From a virus: a stretch of DNA of 40,231 bases. A program made the position numbers and the translations under genes. Each line of letters starts with the position of its first letter. The first letter of the stretch is position 1. Below the pieces are notes generated by a model that saw only the letters and a program-made list of their open reading frames with translations, ran no database searches and was not told the DNA's origin. The DNA lies in IMG/VR virus record IMGVR_UViG_3300034104_002741, positions 1 to 40,231 of that record. One strand, 5' to 3'. This document shows, one piece after another, positions 3,460 to 40,210 of the stretch.

Positions 3460-5268
3460 ATGAATCAAACCGCACAGGGACTTGCTGCGCTTGGCCGAGG
3501 CCCGGACACTCAACTCGTCCACATGGCCCCGAGCGAAATTAATAGCCTCCAGCAACTGGCTATGGCGCATGGCGGGTCTCTCACTATTAACCCAGAAACA
3601 GGTCTGCCAGAGGCGGGCTTTTTGTCGTCCATCCTGCCTATGGTGCTAGGTGCCGGGGCCATGATGATTCCCGGCTTGCAAGGTTTTGGCGCTGCTGGCA
3701 TCGCCGCAGGTATCGGTGGTCTGCAAGCACTGCGTACGGGTAGCTTGAAAAAAGGTCTGATGGCCGGTCTTGGTGCTTATGGTGGTGCCGGTTTGGCAGG
3801 TGGCTTAACGGCTGCTGGCGCAGCCTCTGGGGCGGGCGCGGCTGGCGCGGGGACGCCTGAGATATTGGGTGGCTTAGGGGCACAACCTGCAACATTTTCC
3901 GGAAACCTTGCTCAAGCAGGTCAGGGTCTTACGGCGCTACCTACTTCAGAGGCGGCGCGAACCGCGTTTATGGGTAACGCAGCTTTAAAGGGCTCAGGTG
4001 TTGGTGGAGCCAAAGGTTTAATGCAGTACGGACTCGCGGCGGCATCCCCGATGCTGATGGAGACAACCACCAAACAGCCAGAGATAAAGACTGACAAAGA
4101 TATGGGTCAGCGGTATAGGTTTGACGCCGGAGCACTGACGCCCACACCTGTTGCTGACACCCCCGGGTATAACAATCAAGGCTTAAACTTTGGCAAAGAA
4201 CGGCAGTATTTCAACCCAATGTACAGGCCAATTGACAACGATGCCGCTAGAAAACTGTACGGTTTTGCTTCTGGTGGGCCCGTTGAAGACATGTCAAACG
4301 CCAACTCAATCGGCATGAACACAGGCTATCCACAGGCAGATATTCGCACAGGTGCGTACGCAACTCCGTACCAGCAGCCAATCAGCCGCAATGTAGTGAG
4401 CGGTGCTCAAGGTGCTGCCGTCAACCCCTACACGGGTCAAGCACAGTTTGCCGAAGGCGGTGCGGTTGATAGCTACACATACGACCCTACTACGCAAATG
4501 TACGTCAAGAAAAGCGGCGAGGGAGCCACAGTGGTTTCGCCTACCGGCGGTATTTCTGGTGCCAGTGGTTCAAGCGGAAGCGGCATTCCAAGTGGGCCAC
4601 CCCCTACTACCACACCCGAAGAATTTGCAGCGCAAAGTGAGCGTAATCAGAAGATCAACGACTTCTTGACAAACATATCAGCAGTGCTTAGCCCCGGCGC
4701 CACGATTGCTCGCGGCCTTTTGGATACGCCTTTTGCGGGCGGAATTGCAAACGCTTTTGGCGGAAGACAAGACCCCTCACTTGCAACCGTGGAAAATATG
4801 GGAACGTATGCTGTAGGTCCCGCCATGCAGTCAATGCAAGATGCGTACAACGCGGATATGTCGGCAGCACAAAGCGGCGTAAGTGGCGCCAACAGTCCGG
4901 GAGCAGATGCAGCCTCAGCAGCCAACGCAGGTGAAAATCTAGCTAAAGGCGGCATAGCTGCTCTAGCCCAAGGCGGCATCTCCAATCTCGGGGACTACTC
5001 CGATGGCGGCAGACTTCTGCGCGGCCCCGGCGATGGCATCTCTGACTCTATCCCCGCAGTGATTGGCAAGAAGCGCCCAGCGCGGCTCGCCGACGGAGAA
5101 TTTGTGGTTCCCGCACGGATTGTGTCTGAGCTAGGTAATGGCTCGACTGAGGCCGGTGCCCGTAAACTGTACGCCATGATGGACAGGGTTCAAAAAGCTC
5201 GTAAGAAGACAGTGGGTAAAGGCAAAGTAGCAGCTAACAGCCGTTCGGCTAAGTACCTACCTGCATGA
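3460..5268 (+). CDS. Tail or DNA-ejection structural protein, Gly/Ala-rich
   Basis: The 602-residue protein has a strongly hydrophobic Gly/Ala-rich region at about residues 50-130 (LPMVLGAGAMMIPGLQGFGA and following), suited to membrane insertion. Low-complexity Gly/Ser/Pro stretches lie in the middle. The C-terminal part contains FASGGPVEDM, AEGGAVD, GGIAALAQGGI and IPAVIGKKRPARLADGEFVV. These GG-x-V and DGEFV motifs recur in phage tail and ejection proteins. It shares the AxGG motif style with the 951-residue protein at 5690. The start follows AGAGGCAACC. Its role in DNA delivery across the envelope is inferred from composition and position. Confidence 0.6.
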   Translation: MNQTAQGLAALGRGPDTQLVHMAPSEINSLQQLAMAHGGSLTINPETGLPEAGFLSSILPMVLGAGAMMIPGLQGFGAAGIAAGIGGLQALRTGSLKKGLMAGLGAYGGAGLAGGLTAAGAASGAGAAGAGTPEILGGLGAQPATFSGNLAQAGQGLTALPTSEAARTAFMGNAALKGSGVGGAKGLMQYGLAAASPMLMETTTKQPEIKTDKDMGQRYRFDAGALTPTPVADTPGYNNQGLNFGKERQYFNPMYRPIDNDAARKLYGFASGGPVEDMSNANSIGMNTGYPQADIRTGAYATPYQQPISRNVVSGAQGAAVNPYTGQAQFAEGGAVDSYTYDPTTQMYVKKSGEGATVVSPTGGISGASGSSGSGIPSGPPPTTTPEEFAAQSERNQKINDFLTNISAVLSPGATIARGLLDTPFAGGIANAFGGRQDPSLATVENMGTYAVGPAMQSMQDAYNADMSAAQSGVSGANSPGADAASAANAGENLAKGGIAALAQGGISNLGDYSDGGRLLRGPGDGISDSIPAVIGKKRPARLADGEFVVPARIVSELGNGSTEAGARKLYAMMDRVQKARKKTVGKGKVAANSRSAKYLPA

Positions 5269-8548: not shown

Positions 8549-11500
8549 ATGAGTCCTGAAGAGTGGCTAGCCAAACAACCGGCGGGGAAAAAAGCCCCTC
8601 TTGCTCTAAGCCCCGAAGAATGGCTCGCTCAACAGAATGAGGAGCCAAAAGGCGAGTCCGGGTTCATTCCGTCCATCAAACGTGGCGCACGCGGCGTCGC
8701 GTCCCTTGCCACCGACATTCTCCCTGCTATGGTGGGCAAAGCCACCGGGAATGAAGAGTACGCCCAGAAACAGCTGAAAGAAGCTGCTGCGTACCAGAAA
8801 GAAACTGCACGCCTGTACCCCGCCGAGATTGAATCCTACAAGGACATCAAGGGTGTTGGCGATGCGCTGACCTACGTTAAAGAGGCCATCGGCGAGGCGA
8901 TCCCTTCGCTTATCCCAAGTTTGGTTACGGGTGGAGCTGCCGGTATCGCCGCACGCGGGGCTACAGCCGCAGCTATGCAAGCCGCCGAACGAGTGGCCGC
9001 GCAAGAAATAGCACGCGCTTCCGCCCAAAGAGTGCTTACCAAGGAAGCCTTGGACGGTATCAGAGATACAGCCATCAGCGCCGGTGCCAGAGAAGCCCAG
9101 AAGATCGCGCTCAAGTACCAAGCCGTTGGCGCAGTGGCGGGTTCCGCCGCGCAGAACATTCCTGACGTTTATCAGAACATCTACGAAGCCACGGGTCAGG
9201 AAGACCTTGGCGCAGCGATTGCGTTTGGTGGATTCAATGCTGCGCTGGACGCAATCCTGCCTGTCAATCTGCTACGTAAATTTACCAAGACAGGTATCAG
9301 CCCCGAAGAAGTGGCCGCTGCTTGGTACAAACGCGCTGGCAAGGGAGCCGCAAAAGGGTTTGTAACCGAGGGTGGTACTGAAGCGTTGCAGGAAGTTTCA
9401 TCCGCCGCCGCTGAAAAGTTTGTGGACGAGAACCAAGAGTTTTTCTCCGAGAAGAACTTTGAGCGGTTCATCAACAGTGGCTTGAAGGGTGGCTTTGGTG
9501 GCGCAGGTATAACCGCTGCCACCGACGTGGCGTTTGGCAAAGGACCAGTGGCGCGACCAAGAGCCACGGGTCAAACAACCTCAGACACGCTTGCAGGAGA
9601 CGAAGATGTTGCAGGAATTAACGAACCAGCAGGTGGAGAAAGCACTGGAGTGGCTGGCGAGCCCGGAGCTGAACGGCCCCCCGGAGGACTTGGTGGCGCT
9701 AAATCAGATAGAGTGGTACCTACTGAACAGGCTGCTGGACGACTTGATGACAGAGAAGAGCAGTCTGCCGCTGCACTGACAGCGTTTGACGATTTTAATC
9801 GTCAGTACAACGACCTCAGACAAGAGGCTAACGAGATATACACCTCGCCTACCCGGACGCCGGGTGACGTGAATCGCTTGCGGATGATAAACCGCGACCT
9901 AGCCAGTGTTATCGACGCCAACACCAATCTCATTGGCGACGCTGAACTTGCAAGAAGAATGAAGAACTCAAGCTTCGATGCAAGCCGAGAGCTAAGTGCC
10001 ATTCGGTTCTCGATGGACGTTGGGTCCGCCTCACAGCCACGCGCTATGCAGAGCACTTTGTTTGGTGCGGACCCTGTAGCGGTCAGCGATATGCTGCGTA
10101 TTAGCTTGGACAAGACCCGCCAAGACCCAGCGGCGGCGATCAAAATACTTGAAACTGATCTTGCCAACAGAGCCGCAGAACAAGCAAAGGGGCTGCACGA
10201 TTCTACGTGGGCAACTAAAGTTTCCAAGCGTTTTGGCTTACGGCTTGGCGACGTAAACACACCAGAGAAAATTAAAGCGCTGTCAGAGTTGTTCATGGAC
10301 AACGAGGTCCGAAACACCAAGGCTGCTATAGCCAAACTCCAAGATCGAGTGAGCCAGCCTCGTGCTATGCAGAGTAGGATGTTTGACGATAAGTCCTCCC
10401 AAGAGTCACAGGTAGGCACTGACAAACCGGAAAGTCTGACGGACGTTTTTAGAACTACGAACGATGTAGAGCGGAGTGAACTTAGCTTAGAAAACCAAGC
10501 TAAGTTTGATGCGTATCGTGAACGGCAAGCAAGAAGCGCCGAGATTGAGTCGCGCCAGTCTAAAGACAAATCGGTGGCAGGGGCTTCAATCACACCTGAA
10601 GAGTTTGTCAACATAGCCACCGCAAAAAAACAGGAATTGGAAAAACAACTTGCTGAGTCGCAACAAGAAGTGGCAAGGCTCCAAGAACTCTTTACCTACG
10701 TACGTGCTCAGGGTCCTAATTACCCTCTTACCCTAGTAACCAGACGTACGGCTCGCGGCCCGGAAAGAGTGGATTTGGTCAAGGCAATTGACGAAGAAAC
10801 CAAAATCCTCAAGCGTATTGAGACTGACATAGCGGGCGTGAATCAACAGATTTCCGACGCTCAATCTAGGTTGGGTACACCACAGATTCAGCCTGTACAG
10901 CGTACCACTCCGGTAGCCCAAGACCTGCCCGGCATGGAAACTGGCGAGCGTAGACGCAGAAAAGCGTTGCCCGTTTCCACAGAAACCGAAACAGCTCTAA
11001 ACGAAGAAAAGCTCGCCGAGAGACTACAACTTTTACAAAACCGCAGAGCCGAACGAGACGCCAAGCGAGAAGAGTTTGGTGCGGCCTTTGAAGATGAAAC
11101 TGCTGCCGACGAAGCTGAGCTTTCTGTTGAGCCTTTCACAGACAAAAAAGTTGAGCCTGTTACAGACGAAGCAGTTGAGGCCAGCGAGAAAGAAGAATTA
11201 GCAAATCTGCAAGCGGAGCGCATTGCCAAAACAGTAGAGGGTAGGCAGATAGTCGATTTCTTTGACGCTATTAAGTCATCGTCTACCAAAGAATCTGAAC
11301 AGGAAAAGCACGGCCAACCAAAAAGGTCCGCGCTGCGAAAATTGTTGTCGTTCGATATCGTCAAACCCGGCGAGACAACTACACCCGCCGTGCAAGCTGC
11401 GTTACGCTTTCTGGCTAACCGCATGGGTGGTGTGGAGTCTTTTGAAGAACTACTATCAAAATTAAAAACGACGCCCGCCGAACTTCAACCGGGCGTGTTT

Positions 11501-14500
11501 AAGCGTGATGGTTTACCAGACCTGACCACGCGCCGGGGCATGGAGGACCTTAGCTCCCAAATAGACGACTACATCAGCAGCCTGACCGGAAAAGGTACAG
11601 GCATCCGTATGTCTACGAAGTCAATGGCGGCTTCGGTCACGGGTGAATTTAGAGGTGTAATGCCCTACACCGAAGAAATAAAACAGTTTGCAGATGAGGC
11701 TCTTGAGTACGCGCCGTTTCAGCAAACCGGCGAGCCTCGCCAGCCAGACCAGCGCCAGACAGAAACAGTATATGCGTTATCTGACACCAAAATAAGGTCG
11801 GCTAGACGTATTTTGTTAGAGCTAATCCGCGAAAAAGTAAAGCTGTCTCGCGGCGCTAAAGCCGCCGCTGCGTACATATTTAACCCCAATCGCGACTCTT
11901 TTGGAGAAGCGCTACGCGACGTGGCTTTTGACGTCGCCATGTTTGAAGTTAACCCCAAAGCTTACCCGGCTAATGGGGTATATAGTGGTGAAGGCGGCGC
12001 GTACGCAAAAGATTTTCAAGCTTGGATTGTGCAGAACTTAGACGTTGGCACAGCTGGGATTTTGGACGACATGATCAAAGTCTACAAAAACAACGTCGCA
12101 AGCAGCACTAAAGCTAAACAATTTGAAAAAGCCTACACAGCTGCTAATAAACAGGCGGAGGAGCGCCGCCAGAAAGCGGAAAAATTCTACGGTAGGAATA
12201 TCCCGGCTGCGCCAAAGAAATCTCGTGAGAAACTTGGAGAGACAGAAACTACTGAACAGAGTGGATACGAAGAGCCAAAGATTCCTGCAAAGAACCTGCC
12301 GCGTGAGCAGGTGTTGTACGACGTGTACCCATCAATTGCTGACGCAATCAAGGCGGGCGACACGCGACGTGCACTGGAGTTGATGGCACAGTCAAAAACT
12401 GACAAGTACTACGCTCTGCTGGCGCAACGTCTACTTGACGCCAACATCACCGCCAAGATAGAGATGATCGGCACAGACGAGATGTCTCCGTTGTCTCCTG
12501 AGCCCGGCATTTCCGACACACTGGATGGTTACCTGACCGCGCTCCGAGATGTGGTGATCACCACTCTGCCGAAGGGTAAGCAAGCTAAGCTGGTGCGTCA
12601 GTTGGAGTCTAAGAAACTGCGCGACGTCATAGATGCGTTTGAGGAACTGAGCAGCAGCTCTGGCAATTTTACGGATGGGCAACACCAACTGTTGGCCGAC
12701 ACAACAAAGTTTTTCAACGAGCAGTACTTCTGGGACGGCAAGTACAACCCTGCCACAGACAAAATCTCTGTGCGTATTGGGCGACTGACCAACCACATGT
12801 TCATGCACGAAGCTCTGCATGCAGCAACGGATCACTTGATCTCACGCCCAGACGAGTTAACAGGTGTCCGTCGGCAGGGGTACGACCGGCTCGTTGAATT
12901 GTTTGAGTACTCTAAGGGCACGTTGGCTCTTAAAGGGCTGACAGACTCCACCATTTATGGCCTGAAAAACTTGCATGAGTTTGTGTCTGAAGCAATGACC
13001 AACCCGGAGTTTCAGGCTACGCTGCGGGCCATTCGGTACAAAGCTTCACCGTACTCGTTAATGAGCCGGTTTGCAGACGGCATACGCAAGCTTTTCAATA
13101 TTGTGGACCCCACTGAAAGCAACGTCCTCAACGAAGTTATCTTCTCTACTGACATCATGATGATGGGCGGAAGCGCGGGTAGGGAGTCGCTGACCAGTAC
13201 GCCAAGAGCGATGGCAGGTAAACGTAAACCTATACTGCCACAAGGCAAGCGGGCGCTGCCCGTAGGTCGGCCAGACTCTAAGACCGCCATCAGCAACATG
13301 ATGTCGTCTCGCTCGTGGGGCGAAGTGAAATCGCAGTGGCCAGTTTTTTACTCTAACCTAGCGGCCAAGCTACGACCAATTGCTCTAGGCGGGTTGACGT
13401 TGCGCCAACTTGGTGATCTGGTTGACAACCGTATTCCACAAGTTGATAACTTCATCAGAGTTTCCGATGAGTATTTGTCCCGCAAAAACCAAATGCTCAA
13501 TGAGTCTGGTGACATAACCAAGCGTTGGACACGCTTGCAAGTAGCAAACCCCGACATGTCACGCAAGCTAGGCGCAGTCATGTTTCGGGCTACGTTAGCC
13601 GAACTTGACCCGGACAGAGCCACGATACAGCAGGGCAAAGAAAACGTAGAGCTGATGACGCAGTGGAACCAGCTTGACGACAAGGCTAAGGGAATTTATC
13701 GCGAAGTGCGTAATTACTACGAGAAGCGTTTTAGTGAGTACAAGCGCACGCTGAACAATCGCGTCGAACTGATGAAGAAGTACGGTGTTTCTGAAGCAAC
13801 GATTAGCAAAATTCGTAAAGAATTTGAGCAAGACATTCGTAAAGGACCCTACTTCCCGCTCATGCGCTATGGGCGGTTCTGGTATCAGGTTGGCAAGGGG
13901 AACAACCGCGAATATTACATGTTTGAGACACTTGGTGAAAAACAAGCGCACTTAACGGAGCGGCTTGAGCGTAACCCAGAATTAAACAACGACGACTTTT
14001 TAGACGGTAGCCAATACCAAACTCAGATGGACTCGCACGCTAGAGAATCAACGTTCCTCAAGGCTGCGTTTGATGCTATAGATTCCACGGACAACATGGG
14101 CGACAAGCAAAGTTTGAAAGACGAGTTGTATCAAACGTGGTTAGCCAACCTACCGGAGACAAGTTTCCGTAACAGGTTCATTCACCGTAAAGCTGTTGAG
14201 GGTTTTTCGCAAGACGCACTGCGTAATTTCTCGTCATCGTCATTCCACATGGCGTACCAGATGTCGCGCTTTGAGCATTCGCCTGAGTTGTTTTCGCAAA
14301 TTACTGCCGCTCGCTCTCAGCTAAAAGAACGTAGGGACGACGAAGATAGAGCCAACTTGGAAGTTATGCGAGAGAACAACGAGCTGAGCGACTACGTTCA
14401 AGAACTTAATGGGCGTATGGAAAAAATCCTCAACCCCGAGGATGTTGGTCCAGTTGTGTCTCTGCTGTCAAATGTTGGATTTATCTACTACCTCACGTCT

Positions 14501-16075
14501 GTTGCATCTGCTGCAACCAACGTATTGGGCGGTATGATTATCGGTCTACCAACATTGATTAGCCACCAGATACGCATGAACCCAAACATGTCGTACACCG
14601 CCGCAACAATGGCGTCGCTAGGGCAGATGAAAAACGCAGCTATGCAAATTATGGCGACGGGATTCTCAGTAGACCGAGGCCCACGCTTGCGTGACAGCTA
14701 CGTCCTGTTCCCATCGCTTGACCGTTCCAGCAGTTTGAGCAAGATAGAACGCGACGCATATAACAAATTTGTAGCCGACGGTGTCATAGATATCACTGCC
14801 GCCTATGACCAGTCCGGACTTGCGTCTGCTCCGACCGCAAATTACGGTGGCACAGGCCATAGGGCCATGCAAGCTGTAGCCGCGTTGTTTCACAACGCTG
14901 AGCGGTTTAACCGAGAAGTGGTTGCCATGTCTGCGTTCCGTGCGGGTATGGCAAAACGCGCTGGGGAGAAAGACCAGAAGCAAGCATTTATAGACTCAAT
15001 TGCCGATGCAAAAAATGTAACCACCCAGTCGATGTTTGACTACTCGTCGGTTAACAAGCCCCGCTATATGCAGTCTCCTGCGGCCCGTGTGATCTTGCAA
15101 TTTAAGCAGTTCCCCCAGCAGATGACCTTCTATTTGGTTCGTAACTTACAGCATTCGCTGGTTGGCGCAACACCGGAAGTCAAGCGCGAGGCACGAGCCC
15201 GGTTCGTAGGAACGATGGGCATGACCGCCATATTTGCTGGCTCAACAGGTTTGTGGGGATTCTCCACAGTCGCCGCAATTGTCAACGCCGTGATAAACGG
15301 TCTTGGGGATGACGACGAAGAACCGTTTGACTTTGAGCTTGAGTACATGAACTGGGCGTCTGAGACGTTTGGTAAAAACCTTGGTATGTTTTTGACACGC
15401 GGAGCGGGCAACGCTGCCGGTGCTGACTTACACAGCCGGGTTTCTCTTGACGACATGTGGTTCCGTGACGGTCGTAAAAACACCGACGAAGCCGAAGCCC
15501 TGCAAGAATTCTTGGTCAGCATGCTTGGCCCTACTGTTGGCATCGCGGTCAATGCGGCTCGTGCAGTTGACCTGTTCAACCAAGGCCACGCAGATCGGGC
15601 AATAGAAACGGTATCGCCCGGCTTTATCAAGCAGCCGTTGGTTGCCGCCCGTTACGCCCGCGAAGGTGCAAACACGCTGAAAGGTGATCCACTGGTGCAG
15701 GATGTTGGCCCTATGGACTTGCTCATGCAGTCTCTTGGGTTCCGACCCACTGAAATCGCTGAGCTTCAGTATTACAACATTACGAAGAAGGGTCAGGAGC
15801 AGGCGATCTTGAAGGAGCGCCAGAACCTGTTAAACCTCTTTGGCATATCGTTCATGGCGAATGATGCGGACGCCAACGAAAAAGCGTTTGAGAAGATCAT
15901 GAAGTTCAACGCCAAGTACCCGTCAAAAAATATCCCCATGAAGAGCCTTACAAAGTCTATCAAGGAGCGGGCAACAAAATCAGCTATGGCACGACATGGT
16001 CTGCACATTGATAAGAAGCTGCAAGGTCTTATCAACGAGACCTACATCGACAGGTTGACCGAGGACGAGGAATAA
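8549..16075 (+). CDS. Giant polyvalent virion protein with HEXXH metallopeptidase-like motif
   Basis: This 2508-residue protein is the largest in the window. The N-terminus carries a duplicated motif, SPEEWLAKQ at residues 2-10 and LSPEEWLAQQ soon after. A hydrophobic Ala/Gly stretch lies near residues 110-140. Long charged helices fill roughly 400-1000. FMHEALHAATDH gives an HEXXH at His1420-His1424, followed about 55 residues later by LHEFVSEAMTNPEFQ, whose Glu could be the third zinc ligand. Two hydrophobic stretches lie near residues 1968-2007 and 2220-2250. The segment around 2157-2200 (SMFDYSSVNKPRYMQSPAAR, then FKQFPQQ) resembles the C-terminal LPD38-type domain of large polyvalent phage proteins. 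It is probably injected with DNA. The start follows AGGAGCCTAAATA. Confidence 0.7.
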   Translation: MSPEEWLAKQPAGKKAPLALSPEEWLAQQNEEPKGESGFIPSIKRGARGVASLATDILPAMVGKATGNEEYAQKQLKEAAAYQKETARLYPAEIESYKDIKGVGDALTYVKEAIGEAIPSLIPSLVTGGAAGIAARGATAAAMQAAERVAAQEIARASAQRVLTKEALDGIRDTAISAGAREAQKIALKYQAVGAVAGSAAQNIPDVYQNIYEATGQEDLGAAIAFGGFNAALDAILPVNLLRKFTKTGISPEEVAAAWYKRAGKGAAKGFVTEGGTEALQEVSSAAAEKFVDENQEFFSEKNFERFINSGLKGGFGGAGITAATDVAFGKGPVARPRATGQTTSDTLAGDEDVAGINEPAGGESTGVAGEPGAERPPGGLGGAKSDRVVPTEQAAGRLDDREEQSAAALTAFDDFNRQYNDLRQEANEIYTSPTRTPGDVNRLRMINRDLASVIDANTNLIGDAELARRMKNSSFDASRELSAIRFSMDVGSASQPRAMQSTLFGADPVAVSDMLRISLDKTRQDPAAAIKILETDLANRAAEQAKGLHDSTWATKVSKRFGLRLGDVNTPEKIKALSELFMDNEVRNTKAAIAKLQDRVSQPRAMQSRMFDDKSSQESQVGTDKPESLTDVFRTTNDVERSELSLENQAKFDAYRERQARSAEIESRQSKDKSVAGASITPEEFVNIATAKKQELEKQLAESQQEVARLQELFTYVRAQGPNYPLTLVTRRTARGPERVDLVKAIDEETKILKRIETDIAGVNQQISDAQSRLGTPQIQPVQRTTPVAQDLPGMETGERRRRKALPVSTETETALNEEKLAERLQLLQNRRAERDAKREEFGAAFEDETAADEAELSVEPFTDKKVEPVTDEAVEASEKEELANLQAERIAKTVEGRQIVDFFDAIKSSSTKESEQEKHGQPKRSALRKLLSFDIVKPGETTTPAVQAALRFLANRMGGVESFEELLSKLKTTPAELQPGVFKRDGLPDLTTRRGMEDLSSQIDDYISSLTGKGTGIRMSTKSMAASVTGEFRGVMPYTEEIKQFADEALEYAPFQQTGEPRQPDQRQTETVYALSDTKIRSARRILLELIREKVKLSRGAKAAAAYIFNPNRDSFGEALRDVAFDVAMFEVNPKAYPANGVYSGEGGAYAKDFQAWIVQNLDVGTAGILDDMIKVYKNNVASSTKAKQFEKAYTAANKQAEERRQKAEKFYGRNIPAAPKKSREKLGETETTEQSGYEEPKIPAKNLPREQVLYDVYPSIADAIKAGDTRRALELMAQSKTDKYYALLAQRLLDANITAKIEMIGTDEMSPLSPEPGISDTLDGYLTALRDVVITTLPKGKQAKLVRQLESKKLRDVIDAFEELSSSSGNFTDGQHQLLADTTKFFNEQYFWDGKYNPATDKISVRIGRLTNHMFMHEALHAATDHLISRPDELTGVRRQGYDRLVELFEYSKGTLALKGLTDSTIYGLKNLHEFVSEAMTNPEFQATLRAIRYKASPYSLMSRFADGIRKLFNIVDPTESNVLNEVIFSTDIMMMGGSAGRESLTSTPRAMAGKRKPILPQGKRALPVGRPDSKTAISNMMSSRSWGEVKSQWPVFYSNLAAKLRPIALGGLTLRQLGDLVDNRIPQVDNFIRVSDEYLSRKNQMLNESGDITKRWTRLQVANPDMSRKLGAVMFRATLAELDPDRATIQQGKENVELMTQWNQLDDKAKGIYREVRNYYEKRFSEYKRTLNNRVELMKKYGVSEATISKIRKEFEQDIRKGPYFPLMRYGRFWYQVGKGNNREYYMFETLGEKQAHLTERLERNPELNNDDFLDGSQYQTQMDSHARESTFLKAAFDAIDSTDNMGDKQSLKDELYQTWLANLPETSFRNRFIHRKAVEGFSQDALRNFSSSSFHMAYQMSRFEHSPELFSQITAARSQLKERRDDEDRANLEVMRENNELSDYVQELNGRMEKILNPEDVGPVVSLLSNVGFIYYLTSVASAATNVLGGMIIGLPTLISHQIRMNPNMSYTAATMASLGQMKNAAMQIMATGFSVDRGPRLRDSYVLFPSLDRSSSLSKIERDAYNKFVADGVIDITAAYDQSGLASAPTANYGGTGHRAMQAVAALFHNAERFNREVVAMSAFRAGMAKRAGEKDQKQAFIDSIADAKNVTTQSMFDYSSVNKPRYMQSPAARVILQFKQFPQQMTFYLVRNLQHSLVGATPEVKREARARFVGTMGMTAIFAGSTGLWGFSTVAAIVNAVINGLGDDDEEPFDFELEYMNWASETFGKNLGMFLTRGAGNAAGADLHSRVSLDDMWFRDGRKNTDEAEALQEFLVSMLGPTVGIAVNAARAVDLFNQGHADRAIETVSPGFIKQPLVAARYAREGANTLKGDPLVQDVGPMDLLMQSLGFRPTEIAELQYYNITKKGQEQAILKERQNLLNLFGISFMANDADANEKAFEKIMKFNAKYPSKNIPMKSLTKSIKERATKSAMARHGLHIDKKLQGLINETYIDRLTEDEE

Positions 16076-19209: not shown

Positions 19210-19231
19210 CCAATAGCACGTCAATAAAATG

Positions 19232-19286
19232 GGGGGTGACGGGGGCTGACGGATACCCCGTTCGCTCCGTCGAGCTAGTCACCCCC
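19232..19286 (-). promoter_or_regulatory. Nested stem-loop in the leader of the primase gene
   Basis: A 9-bp perfect outer stem (GGGGGTGAC at 19232-19240 with GTCACCCCC at 19278-19286) encloses a 6-bp inner stem (GACGGA at 19248-19253 with TCCGTC at 19266-19271). It fills the gap between the stop of the Cro-like gene (19293) and the primase start. On the minus strand only ATTTTATTG follows, so it could be a partial terminator (attenuator), a translational control structure or a protein-binding site. Its function is inference; the pairing is direct. Confidence 0.5.
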
Positions 19287-38397: not shown

Positions 38398-38427
38398 GAA
38401 CAAACCGACAGCATGACGGAATGTCTG
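38398..38427. repeat. Dispersed 30-bp palindromic element, copy 5
   Basis: The arms ACAAACCGACA and TGACGGAATGT surround the centre GCA. It lies in the 5' leader between the promoter at 38482-38510 and the start at 38377, ending 20 bases before the ATG. Its polarity is opposite to copies 2-4. Confidence 0.8.
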
Positions 38428-38525: not shown

Positions 38526-39305
38526 TTAGCCGCCGTGTTCGGCTTTGCGTTGCTGTGCCCGCAGGTACTCATCCCTGCGCCGGATGGCCGCAAAGATGCT
38601 GTCATCCTTAGAGTCCACATGCTGAACTTCAGGCTCTTTGGACTTTTGGACAGGCGTCTGGGCAACCAGACCGTCCAGCTTGGCCTCGATATCGTCAAAC
38701 GAAAACTCTTCAAGGTTGGCGGGCTCGGCGTCTCGGACAGGAGTCATGCTTCGCATCACCAGCACAGGAACAGTCGGGTCGGCGTAGATCGTCTCGGCGT
38801 TGATCATGTGCTTCGGCTTGAACGCGTTGGTATGGCGATGGTCGGGTATACCCTTGCAGTCGAACCCTGCCCGCGCTGCTGTCTCTGCCAGATGACGCAG
38901 GATTACGGGGTCTGATGGTTTCAGGGTTTCCAGCACATCGTCTGGTGGTGCAACCAGATGACGGCTTTCCAGCTGGCTTGGCAAAAGCGCGGTGGGCAAG
39001 TCCGATGCTCGGCGCTCTTTCACGAATGCGCCCGCCTCGGTGTGATGGTACGGATTGACGCAGAACCGTGTGTTGCACCAGCGCACGATTCTGGTGCTGG
39101 CTGGTGGGAACCGGCAAATGGTGAATAGGATGCGGGCAACGCTGGTCGTGCCGAACAATTTGGACAGCGGCGAGGCTGGCGCGAGCATGGGCATGGTCAT
39201 TGTGACCTTGTCAGGCCAGATGTAGCAGTCATCGCGGCGGGCACAGTTGTGGAACAGGTCATCGGCAGTCTTGTACTTCTGAGGGCGTCCGTTGGGTTTG
39301 AGCAT
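38526..39305 (-). CDS. HNH/His-Me-finger-like DNA-binding protein
   Basis: The 259-residue protein has an N-terminal domain with CYIWPDKV, a helix (SVARILFTICRFPP) and RWCNTRFCVNPYHHTEA (Cys77, Cys82, His87, His88). The C-x4-C-V-N-P-x-H string is typical of HNH-type phage proteins; full catalytic residues are uncertain. The C-terminal part is acidic and linker-like, ending in a charged helix (FAAIRRRDEYLRAQQRKAEH). It is the first gene of the leftward block. A weak promoter at 39358-39384 and AAAGGACAAAACC precede it. It may regulate early transcription. Confidence 0.6.
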   Translation of the reverse strand: MLKPNGRPQKYKTADDLFHNCARRDDCYIWPDKVTMTMPMLAPASPLSKLFGTTSVARILFTICRFPPASTRIVRWCNTRFCVNPYHHTEAGAFVKERRASDLPTALLPSQLESRHLVAPPDDVLETLKPSDPVILRHLAETAARAGFDCKGIPDHRHTNAFKPKHMINAETIYADPTVPVLVMRSMTPVRDAEPANLEEFSFDDIEAKLDGLVAQTPVQKSKEPEVQHVDSKDDSIFAAIRRRDEYLRAQQRKAEHGG

Positions 39306-39357
39306 GGTTTTGTCCTTTGGTTGAAAAACTCGGGCTGTTAATAAAAGGCATCGACAT

Positions 39358-39384
39358 AGTATATCAAAGTGGGGTGTTTGACAA
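39358..39384 (-). promoter_or_regulatory. Possible promoter for the 38526 gene
   Basis: On the minus strand TTGTCA (39379-39384) and TATACT (39358-39363) are 15 bases apart; TACTAT offers a 17-base alternative. Both boxes are near consensus but spacing is not ideal. It lies about 50 bases upstream of the start codon at 39305. Confidence 0.4.
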
Positions 39385-39422
39385 GACCTGTACGATTTTT
39401 TAGGGGTTTTATCTACAATATT

Positions 39423-39563
39423 TTATAAGAGTGCTCATACGGTGGAACAGGGAGAGAGGGCGCGGGAGGAATTGAGCAATCATCCTATTCTCAACTTTTT
39501 CTGTGTTCAAATTTTAGTTGGGGTACCTTCTCTCTCTGGTAAACAGTTTAAGCACTCTTATAA
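39423..39563. repeat. Long inverted repeat, 38-bp arms with 65-bp spacer
   Basis: The left arm 39423-39460 and right arm 39526-39563 are inverted copies with 30 of 38 matching positions. The outer 13 bases (TTATAAGAGTGCT and its complement) match perfectly. A perfect TATAAT lies at the outer edge of the right arm. Such arms could form a cruciform origin, flank a small inserted element, or hold paired regulator sites. Confidence 0.7.
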
Positions 39564-39902
39564 TATTTTATTTATAAAAGTAAGTAAGTAAGAGAGAAAA
39601 AATGAAAAGAACCTGTGCAAAATCAACGACTTAGCGAAAATTTCCGGTTTCGTATGTATAAAGAACGAAGGGGTACTTTTATAGCATTGGGCCAAAAACG
39701 AGGTCCGAGATTGATATAACTAGGTGGGATTGTTGGTGCGTACTTGGCCGCGAGGCCGCGTGAATGCTGGCGAGGTGGCTGCGCCCGTTGTGGGCTTTGA
39801 TAAAAGAGGGGTCTTTTTTGCTTGTTTTTTAAGCTATATCGCGCTTGGTGAGAGCCTTTGCCTATGACCGAGCCCAAAGTCATAACTAAAAACTATAAGC
39901 CC

Positions 39903-39932
39903 GAACAAACCGACAGCCTGTCGCATTGTCCG
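39903..39932. repeat. Dispersed 30-bp palindromic element, copy 6
   Basis: The arms ACAAACCGACA and TGTCGCATTGT surround the centre GCC. It lies in the non-coding right region, far from any called start codon on the minus strand, so it may act on genes beyond the right edge or on the region itself. It has the polarity of copies 1 and 5. Confidence 0.8.
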
Positions 39933-39936
39933 AACG

Positions 39937-40061
39937 CTACCCCGATGCTCCCTGCAACTACTATCATACGAATCTGGCGGGCGCTACCCTGCCTTGCCCG
40001 CCGCGCAGAGCAGGACTATCCCGATGCTCGCCACGCCAGCCAAGACTACCCCGATGCTCGC
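39937..40061 (+). repeat. Three 16-bp direct repeats
   Basis: CTACCCCGATGCTCCC (39937-39952), CTATCCCGATGCTCGC (40016-40031) and CTACCCCGATGCTCGC (40046-40061) are near-identical. The first and third are also followed by CAACTACTATCA within 20 bases. Iteron-like repeats of this kind occur at origins and regulator sites; no function is proven. Confidence 0.65.
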
Positions 40062-40210
40062 TACCAACAACTACTATCAAGCCCGCCCCGACTTTGTCGG
40101 GGCCAAAAAAAACCGGCCCCGAACGCCGAAGCGCCCGAGGCCGGACACGGCCCGAAGGCCGCAGGATTTACAGAAAGTAGGGAAGACACAGCGCCGCGAG
40201 AGCGCAGACT

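Follow-up and report, generated by a model that had tools for sequence, protein, structure and literature searches.

The promoters of the N4 virion RNA polymerase are DNA hairpins of 5–7 bp with 3-nt loops, found at podovirus early promoters. Hairpins of another kind serve plasmid pBAA1 and ICEBs1, where the available portions of one study (PMC4595007) describe single-strand origins (sso) as stem-loops whose structure matters more than their sequence. In phage T4, as covered by the available portions of a review (PMC3016281), replication origins consist of a promoter and an A+T-rich unwinding element (oriF and oriG), with iterons at oriE, and lie near transcription switches. Here, we describe a long inverted repeat in the IMG/VR virus record IMGVR_UViG_3300034104_002741; the whole stretch analyzed, hereafter the window, spans 40,231 nt.

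How does this locus compare with these systems? Like an N4 virion RNA polymerase promoter, it would place a DNA hairpin at an early promoter, and the MoxR-ATPase relatives of the window phage presumably include N4-like phages. Unlike the N4 hairpins, however, its counterparts across relatives have arms of 14–54 nt and loops of 56–119 nt—dimensions that fall outside the N4 type. Like the sso of rolling-circle plasmids and ICEBs1, as the accessible text presents them (PMC4595007), the hairpin is a noncoding stem-loop conserved by structure over sequence. It differs from them in having a single, very long stem where they have three stem-loops, and in belonging to a tailed, double-stranded DNA phage with a DNA polymerase A; no rolling-circle initiator or relaxase was seen among the window proteins scanned, which were part of the ORFs of a partial record. 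With the T4 origins, as the review describes them, it shares a promoter in the early region, a tract rich in A+T, and short direct repeats close to where transcription changes direction, but here the hairpin is the conserved feature, and the word “hairpin” is absent from the text of the review (PMC3016281). The records that we examined for these phages and their cultured relatives carry no origin annotation, and the accessible text of PMC13340246 makes no mention of a hairpin or an origin. The literature searched, in which subscription journals are thinly covered, does not describe the element, which is weak evidence of novelty. Judged by sequence searches, the hairpin appears to be without match in cultured phages or Rfam families.

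The preliminary description had reported two 38-nt arms (Table 1), and we confirm them: the outer 13 bases match perfectly, 30 of 38 positions pair, and 65 bases lie between. Our search extends both arms to 54 nt, at 76% complementarity. The best inverted-repeat score in the 926-nt noncoding stretch is 24.1; among 300 first-order resamplings of that stretch, none scored above 13. Folded as RNA, positions 39400–39590 reach −59.7 kcal/mol on the + strand (z −5.4, with 0 of 200 shuffles as good) and z −7.0 on the − strand; folded as DNA, they reach z −4.6. The inverted repeat, single-copy within the record, is real, larger than first noted, and beyond chance. Its A/T-rich, gene-free setting is likewise borne out. 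GC falls to 0.33–0.41 at 39300–39700 in a window mostly at 0.50–0.57 (about 0.53), relatives show a similar dip at this region, and, mechanical ORFs aside, no genes occur from 39306 to the window end.

Table 1. Positions of the hairpin and its neighbors in the window
Feature	Positions	Strand	Details and basis
Early gene (259 aa) downstream of the hairpin, conserved Cys/His motif	38526–39305	−	Alignment; weak fold match to homing endonuclease I-PpoI
Sigma70-like early promoter P2, between hairpin and gene	39356–39384	−	TTGTCA-17-TACTAT or TTGTCA-15-TATACT; promoter scan
Left (outer) arm	39407–39460		39423–39460 (38 nt) in the preliminary description; inverted-repeat search, resampling control, orthologous repeats in relatives
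Covariance-model match	39417–39569	+	38.4 bits, E 1.7e-7; model from seven relatives only
Loop, 65 nt	39461–39525		Loops of relatives, 56–119 nt
Conserved loop block, ~30 nt, gene-sense	39478–39507	−	Common to part of the family
Right arm	39526–39579		39526–39563 (38 nt) in the preliminary description; inverted-repeat search, arm co-variation across relatives
Conserved YAAGTCNTTGATTTT-type element; in gene sense it precedes the hairpin and leads into a pyrimidine/AT tract	39613–39634	−	Variant in 25/32 loci
Three 17-nt direct repeats, iteron-like	39937–40062		Starts at 39937, 40016, and 40046; repeat search
Intrinsic terminator closing the upstream transcription unit	40113–40144	−	14 pairs, 8 T

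Is the repeat retained in other phages? A search with the 259-aa protein gave three close relatives, in one of which (L003) the arms are quite different yet 86% complementary over 51 nt. An 18-member protein alignment then yielded 39 loci, or 40 sequences with the window. We scored 38 of these, dropping L053 and L072 (<200 nt upstream), and removal of six near-duplicates (L058, L061, L065, L080, L090, and L091) left 32 sequences. In all 38 scorable sequences, the best inverted repeat lies at nearly the same place upstream of the early gene, with its median center at −192 from the gene; L042 and L071 have the hairpin farther upstream, at about −440 to −340 (L071 center, −389). As controls we took 228 random 500-nt regions from these loci, without matching their A+T content; among the 32 nonduplicates, 29 score above the control 99th percentile and 25 above the highest control score, 13.5. 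The inverted-repeat scores of L059, L062, and L067 are within the control range. Conservation of the arms in relatives, which had been proposed as a check, is thus found for their complementarity and not for their letters.

We next asked whether the two arms of a locus belong together. With each 5′ arm set against every 3′ arm, the own partner scored a median of 21.4, compared with 6.0 for swapped partners (95th percentile, 13.0), and ranked first in 26 of the 32 rows, as it did in 26 of the 32 columns. The six rows in which it was not best are L067 and five (L066, L070, L076, L083, and L088) in which the better partner is similar in sequence. Arms differ between subclades, yet each pairs with its own partner, indicating that the stem is maintained by compensatory change. 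Within a seven-member subclade, seven pairs have changed on both sides (15 cells versus a shuffled mean of 6.7, with 0 of 500 shuffles as high), and sliding the partner by 1–3 columns leaves at most 3 doubly changed pairs; a three-member subclade has six pairs changed on both sides. A covariance model trained on the seven-member subclade finds the window and six further, nontraining sources at E < 0.001 and three more at E 0.14–0.77. It reports nothing outside hairpins in 414 kb of 38 sources and misses 15 other hairpin-bearing sources. A long complementary stem therefore occurs at one place throughout the group and is kept by coordinated change in both arms. Because the letters change and the pairing is kept, the hairpin itself is doing something. 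The compensatory signal fits a structured RNA and would look no different if the arms paired as a DNA hairpin.

What surrounds the hairpin? It lies in a gene-free stretch of ~930 nt, flanked by an intrinsic terminator and, toward the early gene, by the sigma70-like promoter of that gene. Read in gene sense (minus strand), the order is terminator, 17-nt direct repeats, a TTGATTTT-type element with a pyrimidine/AT tract, hairpin, P2, and the 259-aa gene. The terminator, found at about −650 to −1190 in 28 of 32 loci, insulates the region. P2 is strong (at least the 95th percentile) in 29 of 32 loci, making it the most constant neighbor of the hairpin, which ends ~20–45 nt upstream of the P2 −35 box in the loci measured by eye. 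The idea that the hairpin is a leader of P2 transcripts was rejected, as P2 lies downstream of it. Boxes of the form AACCCCTTGA / AACCCGCAT stand between hairpin and P2 in 17 of 32 loci, variants counted together. Other sigma70 promoters adjoining the hairpin at the 95th percentile or above are nearly absent (antisense, 1/32; upstream P1, 3/32 only). The direct repeats, which are weak, vary from subclade to subclade: L068, L083, and L057 have other ones, and none is clear in L073 or L106. Near-matches to DnaA boxes show no consistent pattern (12 scattered in 28.8 kb versus 37 in 207 kb); phage origins need not carry such boxes. In L013, a 266-aa gene precedes the region on the early-gene strand, and a 289-aa ORF, TerL, and portal lie beyond on the other strand; thus, the hairpin lies outside the divergent gap, with one gene between the two. 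Direct copies of 28 nt with 86% identity occur at 38398–38425, near the next early-gene start, and at 39903–39930 in the noncoding DNA; a 25-nt early-region stretch has a second match in L002 and L003.

A change in GC skew had been suggested as a sign of an origin. The change is present (+0.15 to +0.29 over 39100–39899, negative after) but without diagnostic value: cumulative skew, with its maximum near 16 kb, where operons converge, and its minimum at 36–37 kb, tracks gene direction in the window, and the skew at the hairpin therefore does not discriminate.

The loop folds no better than chance on average over the 32 loci (shuffle z). The conserved block within it recurs in many relatives and is absent from other members of the family. 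It is inverted in L067 and present twice in L042 and L071, with an inverted second copy in the interval from hairpin to gene. A block found in both orientations would fit recognition as duplex DNA, or a hairpin whose function does not depend on direction. A degenerate 21-mer from the block had 12 matches in 2.9 million viral contigs, 12/12 in contigs of the family list. Two matches to the loop motif in metagenome-assembled genomes, from a scan of bacterial and archaeal genomes, were read as chance, and only L012 and L013 among the 16 stretches from an earlier 16-mer motif scan show such a hairpin.

What, then, might the hairpin do? The preliminary description had offered an origin or an inserted element, and of the two a putative origin is plausible and leads. 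At somewhat less than even odds (a probability of about 0.45), comparative sequence evidence points to the repeat as the stem of a cis-acting DNA hairpin in the replication-initiation region of this phage group. That region would run from the terminator to P2 and include the direct repeats, the TTGATTTT-type element, the A+T-rich tract, and the hairpin. Its A+T-rich flanks would melt through negative supercoiling or transcription from P2, one strand could then fold into the hairpin, and the folded strand may be the point from which an initiation factor, primase, or RNA polymerase of the phage or the host begins DNA synthesis early in infection. We favor an origin because the stem is retained despite diverging arms (25 of 32 loci beat all 228 controls, and own arms beat swapped ones), because no sigma70 promoter would transcribe the hairpin either way and P2 lies just beyond it, and because the upstream terminator insulates an A+T-rich region with short direct repeats nearby. 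The T4 and sso parallels drawn above, and a distant record with a 75-nt-arm repeat (L047, below), add to this case. Against an origin stand the missing DnaA-box pattern, the weak and subclade-specific direct repeats, and a skew confounded by gene direction. A covariance-model search also gave no orthologous hairpin in the cultured relatives KPP25, Rollin, and RHph_TM3_14A (first 48 kb), and there is a modest strand bias, discussed next, that also suits RNA.

Could the functional molecule be RNA? A phage noncoding RNA might be made from the window + strand, opposite the early gene, its long stem closing on two inner hairpins in a three-way junction. Such an RNA would have a protein of the phage or the host as its binding partner, or serve as a leader or antisense RNA. 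Arm mismatches read in gene sense comprise 53 A·C versus 22 G·T (P = 0.0004 against equality, 0.014 after composition correction); such an A·C excess would be expected if the opposite strand folds with G·U or G·T wobbles, and it equals a G·U excess on that strand. In the seven-member subclade, + sense surpasses the mirrored gene sense in cells paired (92.7% versus 82.1%), in the inner helices (88% and 97% versus 78% and 64%), and in consensus energy (−49.5 versus −33.8), a comparison that favors + in that the structure itself was predicted on the + strand. The covariance model matches the window on +, and the three-member subclade folds into a similar three-way shape. Across the family, however, shuffle-corrected z over the 32 loci has no strand preference (loop, −0.34 versus −0.42; whole, −5.76 versus −5.68; + lower in 16 loci for the loop and 13 for the whole), and the loops fold at chance level. 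A strand call from folding energy was accordingly rejected: + is deeper in raw energy at most loci, and the z-scores show no preference. Moreover, L056 and L067 score better with the covariance model on the opposite strand, a sigma70 promoter on the + strand lies beside the hairpin in only 1 of 32 loci, and Rfam over the hairpin returns nothing at threshold or at a relaxed threshold. Given the mixed strand evidence, the want of an adjoining sigma70 promoter, and a clear P2 in 29 of 32 loci, we favor a DNA-level element and take RNA from the + strand to be its main rival, possible but doubtful. Somewhat unlikely, too, is a new class of phage structured RNA of ~150–175 nt, with a fast-evolving stem, co-evolving arms, and a 30-nt signature closing it in part of the family; a phage-modified or non-sigma70 polymerase would make it from the strand complementary to that of the first early gene, and its role would be that of a primer or regulator of early replication.

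The remaining alternatives have less in their favor. Regulation of P2 by a cruciform or hairpin with no replication role—a supercoiling-sensitive switch or a structure recognized by a phage regulator—would fit the closeness of the hairpin to the P2 −35 box (~20–45 nt), the constancy of P2 (29/32), and the intervening boxes (17/32). We consider it improbable: a duplex-binding regulator would conserve arm sequence, whereas the arms are free to change, and the hairpin of L042 and L071 is displaced (about −440 to −340). Very unlikely is a packaging or genome-end site (cos- or pac-like), for which one could cite an inverted repeat with direct repeats toward the terminase genes, of which L013, with one same-strand gene before its 289-aa ORF, TerL, and portal, is an example. 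L053 and L072 begin inside the hairpin, and so do both ends of G016 (63,605 nt) fall within it, overlapping by ~46 bases in its 3′ arm with three differences by eye. These mismatches (3/46), however, are more readily explained by variation among strains than by a fixed end; in most contigs the sequence continues across the site, and a cutting site would conserve sequence. The overlap in G016 points to a circular map of ~63.5 kb with arm variation within one population, and the window record is therefore partial. As for the small inserted element first proposed, a mobile miniature element or chance palindrome has only the bare shape to recommend it, two inverted arms around a spacer in noncoding DNA, and is refuted for practical purposes. 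The repeat is single-copy, precedes one and the same gene at an orthologous site across the group, and has arms that have diverged along with the genomes; we found neither the several copies nor the presence/absence at orthologous sites that mark a MITE; the resampling score, the orthologous position, and the co-varying arms rule out a chance palindrome.

If the favored origin reading is true, a double-stranded DNA phage lineage would depend on a long hairpin; if RNA is the answer, the element would be a new phage RNA class. Either way, a cis element is selected for shape over letters across an uncultivated group of ~60-kb phages, at the position expected of an origin or a master early switch. 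The hairpin gives a precise 150-nt target, and natural arm variation supplies ready matched pairs.

Does the hairpin go with the gene or with the region? A distant record without a match to the 259-aa gene (G007, locus L047) has an inverted repeat just before its early-gene ORF, at 4120–4409, with 75-nt arms that are 72% complementary and a very A+T-rich spacer; thus, the hairpin may belong to the region and not to any single gene. The early blocks of KPP25 and RHph_TM3_14A contain A+T-rich, repeat-bearing noncoding stretches, and the KPP25 repeats are iteron-like. In the noncoding early region of KPP25 (L051, 26618–26833), three near-identical 49-nt repeats carry AAACCCGCGTGG, which resembles AACCCGCATGG, the box that adjoins P2 in L060, L063, and L067; this is possibly a shared origin motif. 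In Rollin (L048), an unannotated stretch at ~1850–2050 ends in a tRNA-like 3′ sequence, by eye only; a Rollin repeat that was considered and set aside looks tRNA-like by eye.

The protein encoded downstream of the hairpin has invariant C, H, and CVNPxH residues in the 18-member alignment, which we take to resemble those of a His-Cys-box/HNH nuclease. Its predicted fold is confident at about residues 11–150, and the best match, I-PpoI (Z 2.9; Foldseek E 3.4), is too weak for an assignment; a search of viral models with the fold gave nothing below E 2. No relatives of the protein were found in the bacterial and archaeal genomes searched or in the annotated phage collection. Three homologs (G021:C1:37094-37765, G022:C1:30519-31193, and G026:C1:13377-14051) each cross one in-frame TAG, for which TAG recoding or gene decay is possible.

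Elsewhere, the window encodes a DNA polymerase A, an SNF2 helicase, a DUF927 protein, a MoxR-type ATPase, and a DUF2201 protein. Within the annotated phage collection, the polymerase is closest to those of Rhizobium phage RHph_TM3_14A and Pseudomonas phage KPP25, at <36% identity, and the DUF927 protein is closest to that of Pseudomonas phage Rollin. At the DNA level, the hairpin region has no similarity to cultured phages, and matches elsewhere are tiny. A 2508-aa protein (8549–16075, +) matches, over its C-terminal ~900 residues, very large phage proteins in PHROG, one of them DarB-like; it had no polymerase match in PHROGs or PDB sequences. The sole Rfam match in the window, away from the hairpin, is an int-alpA RNA at 19219–19285 (−), which scores 40.8 bits, above the gathering score, and immediately precedes the DUF927 gene start.
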